From assembly GCF_034092375.1 (NCBI RefSeq), contig NZ_CP139302.1, forward strand, positions 930,001-994,000: 64,000 nt of DNA. The letters run 5' to 3'. The position numbers were made by a program, and so were the translations under genes. The stretch comes from Prochlorococcus sp. MIT 1300. GTDB taxonomy: Bacteria > Cyanobacteriota > Cyanobacteriia > PCC-6307 > Cyanobiaceae. The stretch's first letter is position 1. Each line of letters starts with the position of its first letter. This document shows, piece by piece, positions 39,009-42,678 of the stretch. The notes under the pieces are model-generated. The model made no database searches, was not told the origin of the DNA, and was given only the letters and a program-made list of their open reading frames with translations.

Positions 39009-39734
39009 ATGAGAGAACCGATCCCTGAAAAGCCCAGTTCGACCGTATCACCAAGGCTTTTATTGGTTGACGATGAACCAGGCCTTCGCACTGCTGTACA
39101 AGCCTATCTGGAAGACGAGGGATTCGAGGTTAATACCGCAGTAGATGGCGAAGACGGTTGGCAAAAAGCCCAAGAACTTCTTCCAGATCTAATTATTAGC
39201 GACGTAATGATGCCTCGTTGTGATGGATATGCACTTTTAAAAAAGCTAAGAGATGATGAACGCTTAGGAGGCACACCAGTTATCTTCCTTACTGCAAAAG
39301 GCATGACAATAGATCGGACTCAAGGATATCAAGCAGGGGTAGATGACTATATTCCTAAACCATTTGACCCAGAAGAATTGATAGCGAGAGTGAGAAATGT
39401 AGTGCGAAGACAAAATAGATTACTGGCTGAGGCTGCTCATTTTGCAGATGCAGATATGGGGCAAATTGCAAGACAAATAACAGAAATCCGCTCCTTATTA
39501 GCTCAGGGAGACTCTCCTCAATCCAAAGAGGTTCAGCTCCACAACTTCACTCCCCGAGAAGAAAGTGTGCTGCAACTTGTTGCAGAAGGATTAATGAACA
39601 AAGAAATAGCCAGGAAATTAGAAACATCCATTAGAAATGTTGAAAAGTATGTCAGCAGATTATTTAATAAAACTGGAACATCTAGCAGAACTGAGCTGGT
39701 TCGCTATGCCCTTGAAAATAAATTAGTCAAGTAA
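39009..39734 (+). CDS. NarL/FixJ-type response regulator (Ycf29-like)
   Basis: Two-domain transcription regulator. Receiver: LLLVDDEPG (acidic pair), the phospho-acceptor in DLIISDVMMPRCDGY, and the Lys in YIPKPFDPEEL. Output: LuxR-type HTH, FTPREESVLQLVAEGLMNKEIARKLETS. It resembles the plastid/cyanobacterial Ycf29 group (inference). No histidine kinase is next to it, so the partner is unknown. Ten bases separate it from the downstream RluA-family gene. Confidence 0.9.
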   Translation: MREPIPEKPSSTVSPRLLLVDDEPGLRTAVQAYLEDEGFEVNTAVDGEDGWQKAQELLPDLIISDVMMPRCDGYALLKKLRDDERLGGTPVIFLTAKGMTIDRTQGYQAGVDDYIPKPFDPEELIARVRNVVRRQNRLLAEAAHFADADMGQIARQITEIRSLLAQGDSPQSKEVQLHNFTPREESVLQLVAEGLMNKEIARKLETSIRNVEKYVSRLFNKTGTSSRTELVRYALENKLVK

Positions 39735-39743
39735 TCATTTGAA

Positions 39744-40748
39744 ATGCTAGAAGAAAATCTAAAGCAAGATTGGCTACCCGCGCAAATGAATAATGGCTGG
39801 GCCTATAGTTATATAGTAAAACCAGTTGATAGCGGCTCTAGAGTTGTTTACCTATTAGCGAAGAGATATGGCCATTCCTCAGTAGACGAATGGCAAGGCA
39901 GACTTGACGCCGGCGAAATCCTTCTAAACGACATAGTATTAAGGCAAGATAAAATAATCGTCGTAGGAGACAATATCGTCTGGGAAAGACCACCATGGGA
40001 AGAGCCATCAATTCCTCATAAATGGGAGGTTGTATTTGATAATGATGACCTATTAGTTATTAATAAGCCATCTGGCCTGCCTGTTATGGCTGGTGGTGGC
40101 TATTTACAGCACACACTTACTACCCTGCTTAAAAAGGAAGCAGTCACCAAAAAAAAATTATTATTTCCAGCCCCTGTTCATCGACTGGGAAGATTCACTT
40201 CAGGCTTAATAATTTGTGCAAGGAAGCCAGAAACACGAGCACTCTTATCCGCGATATTTCGCAGAAGTACAACTCAGAGTAATTCCATCAAGAAGGTATA
40301 TCGTGCATTAACGATGATCAACAAGAATCTAGTTCCAGGAAAGATATTAGAGTTAAATCAACCAATAGCAGAAAACAGTCATCCTCTCATAGGAAAGATA
40401 TGGGGACCCCCAATGAAAGAAAGTAAAGACTACAAAAAGGATTTTAAAGGGCGCCTACTTAAAGCCAGTTCACATATAAAGCTTATAGAGCGACGTGAGG
40501 ACGCAGACCTTTTAGAAATTACTATAAAGACAGGACGACCTCACCAAATTCGCATACACCTAGCAATGCTGGGTTCACCCTTAATAGGAGATCCACTATA
40601 TAAATCTCATGGAAAAATTGCACAAAATGCTGTACCTGGGGATGGAGGTTATTTATTACATGCCTATCAGCTAAATCACCTTGAAATACTAGGAGAAAGA
40701 TACTCTTTTAAAGCGAACCTGCCAAAAAGACTAATCGCACAGAGATAA
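39744..40748 (+). CDS. RluA-family pseudouridine synthase-like, catalytic Asp replaced
   Basis: 334-residue protein with an S4-like N terminus (SVDEWQGRLDAGEILLND) and an RluA core: LLVINKPSGLPVMAG, then PVHRLGRFTSGLIICARK, and TGRPHQIRIHLAMLGSPLIGDPLY. The core motif in active enzymes is HRLDxxTSG; here the Asp position is Gly (HRLGRFTSG), read directly at 40178-40206. It may be inactive or use a different residue. It is probably co-transcribed with the response regulator. Confidence 0.85.
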   Translation: MLEENLKQDWLPAQMNNGWAYSYIVKPVDSGSRVVYLLAKRYGHSSVDEWQGRLDAGEILLNDIVLRQDKIIVVGDNIVWERPPWEEPSIPHKWEVVFDNDDLLVINKPSGLPVMAGGGYLQHTLTTLLKKEAVTKKKLLFPAPVHRLGRFTSGLIICARKPETRALLSAIFRRSTTQSNSIKKVYRALTMINKNLVPGKILELNQPIAENSHPLIGKIWGPPMKESKDYKKDFKGRLLKASSHIKLIERREDADLLEITIKTGRPHQIRIHLAMLGSPLIGDPLYKSHGKIAQNAVPGDGGYLLHAYQLNHLEILGERYSFKANLPKRLIAQR

Positions 40749-40761
40749 GATTATGTATTAG

Positions 40762-41481
40762 CTAAACAGAAGTTTTTGATTTCCTAAACTCTATTAATTT
40801 TGAAAAGTAAAATGGAGCTTGATTTAACTTCATTCGTGCGGGCTCAAAGCCGCATTTCCTTGCAGAATTAATAATACCTGCCTCGCGCAGAGTATATGCT
40901 CGAGTCGTCTTACTAGGGCCTGGGAAAAGCTGACCTACTTTCTTTAAAAGGGCCAGAAATGGAGTAAAAGGAGCAAAACTTACTATCAACCTTTCCTGAG
41001 TCAGATTACAGAGGTGTGCAACCATTTCCTCTGCTGCTTCTTGGGGGTAGTGAATAAATACATCCAAGCAAATCACTGTATGGAAAGAGCCTGAAAGACT
41101 TTCCAAATCAGAAGTATCAAAAGTCAATTTGCTTAAATCTAATCCAGCTTCTGTTGCACGTCGTTTGGTTTCTTCGACCATGGCCTGAGAAATGTCACTA
41201 GCAGCGATAGAACCAGCGCCCATCGCCGCCAATGGCAAAGAAAGGCTGCCAACACCACAGCCTGCGTCACAAAAGCTCAATGACCGCAAATCGCTTTCCT
41301 CATCCAACCAGGAAAGAACGTCATCAACTGTCTTTTGATGTCCTAGTCGAATGTTTTTCTGAACTTTGTTGACCTCATCACTTTCGCTGTAGATACGATT
41401 CCATCGTTCAAAACCCATTCCATTGAAGTAATTGGCGACCTCCGCCTTCTCTGCTTGTTTAAGCTCCTTGAACTTTTCCAT
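40762..41481 (-). CDS. chlM: Magnesium protoporphyrin IX methyltransferase
   Basis: SAM-dependent enzyme that methylates the C13 propionate of Mg-protoporphyrin IX in chlorophyll synthesis. 239 residues. Motifs: VANYFNGMGFERWNRIYSES, the SAM loop FCDAGCGVGSLSLPLA, ICLDVFIHYPQE, and SFAPFTPFLALLKKVGQLFPGPSKTTRAY, typical of ChlM. Convergent with the RluA-like gene (13 bases) and 39 bases after nagA on the minus strand. Confidence 0.95.
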   Translation of the reverse strand: MEKFKELKQAEKAEVANYFNGMGFERWNRIYSESDEVNKVQKNIRLGHQKTVDDVLSWLDEESDLRSLSFCDAGCGVGSLSLPLAAMGAGSIAASDISQAMVEETKRRATEAGLDLSKLTFDTSDLESLSGSFHTVICLDVFIHYPQEAAEEMVAHLCNLTQERLIVSFAPFTPFLALLKKVGQLFPGPSKTTRAYTLREAGIINSARKCGFEPARMKLNQAPFYFSKLIEFRKSKTSV

Positions 41482-41520: not shown

Positions 41521-42678
41521 TTAGGCAGCAAGCTTCCAACTTAGTCCTTTCAATTCTTCCTCCCATTGCCAACGCAACAAGTGCTTCAGTGGCTTGCCAA
41601 GCAAAAATTCTTTTATCGAAATCTCCGAAGCAAAAATTTTTCTAGGCGCCATAGTCGCTGACCAAATAGAAGCAGAAGGTTCATTGCCCCACAATGCCAA
41701 GCGACGACAACCTTCTAATAAAGACAAAGTGGAGCCAGCCAAGGTCCCATCTTCTAGGAAACAAGTTCGATTTTTAACACAAACTTTTCTGTGATCCCAT
41801 TGATATTTGCTTTCCTCCATCCCATAGGGTGCGAGAGCATCACTAACCAAAACCAGACGTTTCGAAGCCAATTTTTGCAAGATAACAAGCACTTCAGGAG
41901 CTACATGAACCCCATCAGCAATTAACCCAAAGGCAATCTTCTTATTGCTCAATGCTGCCCCTATTGGTCCAGGATCCCTATGAGTCAAAGCAGGCATGGC
42001 ATTAAAGGTGTGAGTCAACATGCTCACCCCATTACTAAAAGCAGATGATGCCTCTTTCGCATTAGCAGTCGAATGTCCAAGGCAAACTACAATTCCCAGT
42101 TTGGTCAGTCTTTTAACAACCTCTCTAGATCCCGGTAACTCTGGAGCCAAAGTCACCAAACTAATTTCATTTTCAAATCCCCTAATTCTTTTTTCAATAG
42201 CCTCATAGCTTATCTCAGATAAATATTGACAAGGATGGGCACCATTTTTTCGGGGAGAGATAAAAGGCCCTTCTAGATGGGCACCTAAAAGTCTGCAACA
42301 CCTCTCACCAATATGACTACGAGCCTTATGAAGAACCTCTAAAGAATAACGAAGCTTCTCGGGCTCACAACTCACAATTGTTGGACAAATTGCATCAACT
42401 CCATCAATCCAAAGTTGGTTTAATAAAGAAAGCAAACTTGTGATATTTGAATCATCCAAGTCAGAGAAACTTAATCCAAACCCTCCATTCATTTGAAGGT
42501 CCATGCCCATTGGACTCAACCAATCACCATGCCAGTCATCACCTGACATGGCTGACCCTGGTGGCATAACACCAAATTCCAAAATCAGATCTTCTTCATC
42601 CAATCGAATCCACCAAAGTTGCTCTGAGAAACAATCTTCTAAATGGCTTGGGAGACGTACGTTTGTAATACGACGCAT
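41521..42678 (-). CDS. nagA: N-acetylglucosamine-6-phosphate deacetylase
   Basis: Amidohydrolase that deacetylates GlcNAc-6-P in amino-sugar recycling. 385 residues. Motifs: LQMNGGFG, the metal Glu in GAHLEGPFISPRKNGAHP, GHSTANAKEA (His), MLTHTFNAMPALTHRDPG (His) and the catalytic Asp in LVSDALAPYGM. The active site looks complete. The N-terminal 70 residues are divergent. No nagB or transporter is next to it, so the source of substrate is not shown. Confidence 0.88.
   Translation of the reverse strand: MRRITNVRLPSHLEDCFSEQLWWIRLDEEDLILEFGVMPPGSAMSGDDWHGDWLSPMGMDLQMNGGFGLSFSDLDDSNITSLLSLLNQLWIDGVDAICPTIVSCEPEKLRYSLEVLHKARSHIGERCCRLLGAHLEGPFISPRKNGAHPCQYLSEISYEAIEKRIRGFENEISLVTLAPELPGSREVVKRLTKLGIVVCLGHSTANAKEASSAFSNGVSMLTHTFNAMPALTHRDPGPIGAALSNKKIAFGLIADGVHVAPEVLVILQKLASKRLVLVSDALAPYGMEESKYQWDHRKVCVKNRTCFLEDGTLAGSTLSLLEGCRRLALWGNEPSASIWSATMAPRKIFASEISIKEFLLGKPLKHLLRWQWEEELKGLSWKLAA

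Follow-up and report, generated by a model that had tools for sequence, protein, structure and literature searches.

What an RluA-family protein could do in a bacterium once its catalytic Asp has been replaced is the question raised by one gene in the window, that is, the whole stretch of 64,000 nucleotides from Prochlorococcus sp. MIT 1300 analysed here. The gene (39744..40748, + strand) is an open reading frame of 334 amino acids with the motif PVHRLGRFTSG. The catalytic Asp of HRLD is a criterion of the RluA family, and in this protein the corresponding residue 149 is Gly. An earlier note on this DNA had reported an Asp-less HRLG motif with a GGA codon at 40187-40189; the substitution is real, but the position was one base early, the codon of Gly149 being 40188..40190 (+).

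The catalytic column and the pocket

In a Pfam search the protein matched PF00849 with 94.6 bits (cut-off 26.8), and residues 30-330 matched TIGR00005 with 156 bits (E 1.3e-45), which is below the cut-off of that model (192.7). The mean pLDDT of its AlphaFold2 model was 92.3, and Z scores of 19-21 against RluA, RluC and RluD chains assigned it, by prediction, to the RluA/RluD fold. Residues 16-334 could be aligned structurally to full-length Escherichia coli RluD (2ist; Z 19.4, rmsd 7.2); most structural matches covered residues 92-334, so that the N-terminal part was less probed. The trypanosome protein mt-LAF3 (6yxx) was also among the matches (Z 18.1, rmsd 13.9). No S4 match was obtained in Pfam at E 0.001, and it is the TIGR00005 alignment and the structural alignment to RluD that point to an S4-like N-terminus. 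Together with the PF00849 match, they bear out the earlier view that the fold is preserved, including this N-terminus. The same arrangement, an S4-like N-terminus followed by an RluA catalytic domain, is found in E. coli RluD (2ist, 1qyu) and the TIGR00005 subfamily, which, however, possess the catalytic Asp.

Sequence and profile alignments, the latter to the five best solved chains (of both RluD and RluC types), placed Gly149 directly in the catalytic-Asp column without any shift, and residues 133-162 contain neither Asp nor Glu. A catalytic Asp at a shifted position, which the earlier note had considered, could therefore be ruled out. A sequencing error or local mutation was ruled out as well, because the same Gly occurs in independently found orthologues.

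We then compared 51 Gly-bearing rows of the family with 28 canonical rows. All Gly rows shared Lys108, His146, Arg147, Tyr186, Gly264, Arg265, Gln268, Ile269, Arg270 and His272 (frequency 1.00); Lys184 and His267 were nearly as constant (0.98). These residues include Arg147 (codon 40182..40184, +), the Arg of HRLG and by motif the equivalent of the base-flipping Arg108 of RluB, and Tyr186 (codon 40299..40301, +), whose motif counterpart is the conserved active-site residue Tyr140 of RluB (PMC3919597); the conserved substrate-binding motif TGRPHQIRIH (residues 263-272; 40530..40559, +) is also retained. Among residues of known catalytic role, Asp alone was altered. Other canonical positions also differed, among them His115, which is replaced by Leu or Met, and Thr266, which is replaced by Pro. 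No acidic residue that could substitute for Asp was newly invariant in the alignment of the 51 Gly rows. The invariant Glu87 is also present in both Asp-bearing members of the family (see below) and is thus not a replacement for Asp. Judged from residue conservation, such an invariant pocket minus its Asp would fit a protein that still captures a flipped-out uridine.

Distribution and history of the family

Thirty genomes related to that of the window and 291 genomes drawn from the cyanobacterial phylum were searched with the whole protein, the motif being unused. A sharp gap in score separated strong members (E 7e-38 or better) from the next matches (E 7e-24), and the matches below the gap were canonical HRLD genes wherever they were read (L020-L031). 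Strong members were present in 49 of the 291 genomes. The window's family accounted for 20 of these (35 genomes searched) and the remainder of its class for 29 (103 genomes); the phylum outside the class had none (153 genomes). In one family, coded f18, none of 31 genomes had a strong member. All 32 loci read, out of the 49 strong-member genomes, carried HRLG, and Gly149 occupied all 40 rows of alignment A1, which consisted of the window protein and 39 loci from these motif-free searches. Because these orthologues were found without the motif, the Gly is more than chance, and the alignment confirmed the earlier expectation that cyanobacterial relatives share HRLG. A scan of named genomes confirmed 536 loci, and the 80 best of these likewise all had HRLG; because HRLG was also one of the two patterns used to seed the scan, this count is not independent.

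Outside Cyanobacteria, loci titled Gemmatimonadetes (L116) and Candidatus Latescibacterota (L140) proved to belong to one phylum and to have neighbours unlike those in the window. In the phylum with the Latescibacterota-titled record, a strong member was found in 24 of 64 genomes (E 1.5e-88 or better; next match E 4e-41), each with Gly (23 HRLG and one HRIG). The phylum of a Phycisphaerae-titled record contained strong members in at least 6 of 246 genomes (E 2e-83 or better; at most nine candidates scored per genome). One of these six (L073, G313:C96; titled Phycisphaerae bacterium) lies on a Synechococcus-like contig with picocyanobacterial gene order, which is probably contamination. Among the other five planctomycete members, L181, L182 and L184 have HRLG and L183 and L185 have HRLD, the Asp of L183 being confirmed by reading its codon. 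The HRLG family therefore spans Cyanobacteria and two further bacterial phyla; the phyla are named here after the titles of their records. Two local variants were also observed in the planctomycete members: in L184, the first-branching HRLG member, TGRPHQIRIH is replaced by TGRPDQIRIH, and both L183 and L185 read GEPFF at a site that is GDPLY in nearly all other family rows and GD..Y in canonical rows.

Plasmids gave no match to the family at E 1e-25. Phage origin was rejected: none of 33 viral-contig stretches with a pattern match encoded a relative, and 50 phage records matching at E 1e-5 were all below 60% identity (25-30% among the 20 matches listed).

The family can be recognized independently of its Gly. 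The first 201 loci yielded 195 rows of enough length, duplicates included; six loci gave no row (L003, L019, L032, L033, L148 and L150), L019 being a split HRLG member. Against the A1 profile, 154 rows scored 280 bits or more (152 Gly and 2 Asp, duplicates included) and 41 rows, all with Asp, scored 176 bits or less. The two Asp-bearing members scored 287 and 280 bits and carry the signature residues shared by the family (Asn16, Gly18, Trp50, Arg82, Trp85, Glu87, Pro91, Gly302 and Tyr303), which is why membership does not depend on Gly. The 28 canonical rows, in contrast, lack the fixed Asn16, Gly18 and Tyr21 at the start and the Arg82, Trp85 and Pro91 linker pattern.

Phylogenetic analysis was based on 81 rows with the trait column left out (29 cyanobacterial, 19 Latescibacterota-like, 5 planctomycete and 28 canonical); removal of three long canonical rows gave a more careful tree of 78 rows. 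In this tree the family (51 Gly and 2 Asp rows) split from the 25 canonical HRLD rows at 100/99. Near-fixed Gly and this clade apart from the HRLD enzymes agree with the separate group that had been proposed. The two Asp rows were nested inside a 99/86 group of the best tree, and in none of 200 bootstrap trees did a single branch set the Gly rows apart as a whole, whereas a tree of that kind (a single loss) was not rejected by the AU test (p 0.31). Thus, the tree leans towards Asp having been lost and then regained in two rows, rather than lost once with the old state kept in these rows. The two planctomycete members with Asp make it very likely that the family descends from active enzymes. 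A single clade of all cyanobacterial rows was rejected (AU p 0.002), and L140 and L153 of the Latescibacterota-like phylum grouped with picocyanobacterial rows at 100/99, which together suggest transfer between phyla.

The same replacement has been described in plants. According to a 2022 paper (PMC8910892), RluA variants of an XXHRLG type, including AtRLUA7 (AT3G52260) and ZmRLUA7, occur from algae to seed plants, are probably defective and are absent from other organisms. The plastid relatives mentioned in the earlier note hold in so far as plant HRLG proteins are published, but plastid is just one predicted location in a table of that paper. Plant and bacterial proteins are alike in having Gly for Asp in an RluA-family protein; the former are described there in plants only, whereas the bacterial family is present in three phyla, which contradicts the plant-only statement in PMC8910892. 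An approximate sequence of AT3G52260 scored 297 bits against the bacterial family profile, compared with the 287 and 280 bits of the Asp-bearing members, which is a lead that the plant proteins may belong to the same clade. The name AT3G52260 is also reportedly linked to a survey, from 2010, of genes for tRNA modification. A search of the open-access literature found no published report of a bacterial HRLG family, which is largely a bacterial extension of the published plant observation.

Selection and gene neighbourhood

The NG86 dN/dS ratio ranged from 0.16 to 0.53 in 18 pairs of more than 72% identity, drawn from 28 sequences and not independent of one another; on these sequence comparisons, selection on the HRLG gene appears to be purifying but not tight. 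Across 43 loci with all seven neighbouring genes, the median identity to the window was 46% for the HRLG protein versus 51-78% for its six neighbours, making it the most divergent of the seven products. This comparison replaced one with the RluD-like paralogue (median 48% versus 74%), in which the genome sets shared the window's genome alone.

The gene was missing in 15 of the 35 genomes of the window's family. In the window it stands 9 bases downstream of a gene on the same strand for a response regulator with a LuxR-type output domain (39009..39734, +) and converges with the Mg-protoporphyrin IX methyltransferase gene (40762..41481, -). Of 78 loci whose upstream sequence was long enough, 69 had the regulator adjoining the HRLG gene. 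When seven gene-less genomes were viewed via the regulator, it lay directly beside the methyltransferase gene, the far edge of the empty site, in six (L221-L226); in the seventh (L227) the sequence stops too early. The HRLG gene is therefore cleanly absent there in six Prochlorococcus-like genomes. Damaged copies may also occur. One member (L019, G009:C1:1836747-1837662, in a 2.4 Mb genome) is split across two frames and is either broken or carries a frame error, G040 has a partial match only, and four genomes (G104, G121, G169 and G232) each have one in-frame stop within the matched stretch, which may simply be the gene end.

The response regulator was rejected as a clue to function, as it persists in genomes lacking the HRLG gene. 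We also compared the neighbours in 20 stretches (17 of them chosen for this comparison) from other cyanobacteria and the Latescibacterota-like and planctomycete phyla. This comparison was crude, since in several cases the longer overlapping frames of GC-rich stretches displaced the family gene from the list. Neighbours were shared mainly between near relatives (L116/L140, L206/L207 and L211/L212). The exceptions were pentapeptide-repeat proteins beside the gene in L207 and L219, which, for a repeat family, we attribute to chance; a protein of 646-660 aa of no Pfam family was common to L203 and L205, and a few further-off clusters were also shared. Gene context yields no functional inference for the HRLG gene. 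Also in the window, a 385-aa open reading frame (41521-42678, -) had no Pfam match at E 0.001, yet 54 of 80 loci have a relative near the HRLG gene; we take it to resemble N-acetylglucosamine-6-phosphate deacetylase (NagA).

Possible roles of the HRLG protein

We consider it probable that the HRLG protein is an RNA-binding pseudoenzyme acting as a chaperone, assembly or stability factor. Its S4-like domain and the pocket residues for a flipped-out uridine are retained, while isomerisation would not be possible without Asp. Such a protein would most likely bind a particular rRNA or tRNA stem-loop, still capturing the flipped uridine, and once bound would help with folding, assembly or stability. 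We infer the loss of activity, the RNA binding and the role from near-fixed Gly, the single clade, the invariant pocket, the predicted fold, the need for Asp in tested enzymes and several precedents. Between the two roles that had been offered at the outset, RNA binding is more likely than another chemistry.

Several precedents are known. The co-culture defect caused by deleting truB is rescued by inactive TruB, and TruB is a tRNA chaperone (PMC11301382). Both the plastid RsuA protein SVR1, of which an Asp mutant complements, and chloroplast Maa2, which works without isomerase activity, are discussed in PMC8910892. The trypanosome mitoribosome assembly factor mt-LAF3 is RluA-type like the HRLG protein and is needed, although its catalytic function reportedly is not (review PMC11469412); it differs in its mitochondrial location and its remote sequence, which scored 61 bits against the family profile.

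Several observations count against a pseudoenzyme. In PMC11194073, the D144A variant of RluC, itself of the RluA family, did not improve ribosome assembly and made growth worse, so that a catalysis-free role should not be assumed in this family. The highest divergence among the seven neighbours together with absence from the 15 genomes, and the changes at His115 and Thr266, also weigh against it, and the invariant pocket could equally mean a different reaction.

Indeed, the protein might still be catalytic, using another nucleophile or carrying out another reaction on the flipped uridine, for example via the conserved Tyr or a bound water. Besides the remaining pocket residues being invariant, this idea is favoured by RluB, whose Tyr140 was seen bonded to C6 of rearranged 5-fluorouridine (PMC3919597); Arg108 of RluB occupies the position vacated by the flipped base. 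However, the invariant acidic residue Glu87 is shared with the Asp-bearing members, and the same paper states that the catalytic Asp is conserved across all known pseudouridine synthase sequences and that its mutation abolishes the activity of TruA, TruB, RluA and RsuA. We therefore regard continued catalysis as unlikely.

It is similarly doubtful that the protein modulates an RluD-like paralogue or another synthase, either as a partner or by competing for a site and keeping its uridine unmodified. The 1.855 Mb single-contig genome has two further PF00849 matches, one canonical HRLD gene (L001) and an RsuA-type GRLD gene (L003), and a cooperating active partner was raised for the plant proteins (PMC8910892). 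However, some 25 kb separate the paralogue from the HRLG gene, so that they do not share an operon, and a paralogue match persists in gene-less genomes, some match being present in 290 of the 291 genomes and a strong one in 49.

Somewhat less probable still is a broader proposal that the family, perhaps including the plant proteins, kept an Asp-less pocket in order to react in another way with the flipped-out uridine or to read it tightly, even covalently, and that one planctomycete lineage regained Asp. The latter part draws on the nested Asp rows and the 200 bootstrap trees, with a single loss left unrejected by the AU test. Finally, a relic under weak selection that is being lost is very unlikely: clean absences, the split, partial and stop-containing copies and the high divergence would favour it, but full-length frames across phyla, the invariant pocket and the dN/dS values of the 18 non-independent pairs speak against it and support the earlier statement that the gene is not a decaying pseudogene.

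The HRLG replacement is thus not a peculiarity of plants: it characterizes a family in bacteria that has its own signature residues. The role of an Asp-less pseudouridine synthase becomes testable in bacteria, and the two Asp-bearing members lend themselves to a natural comparison of how, and at what point, activity disappeared or returned.
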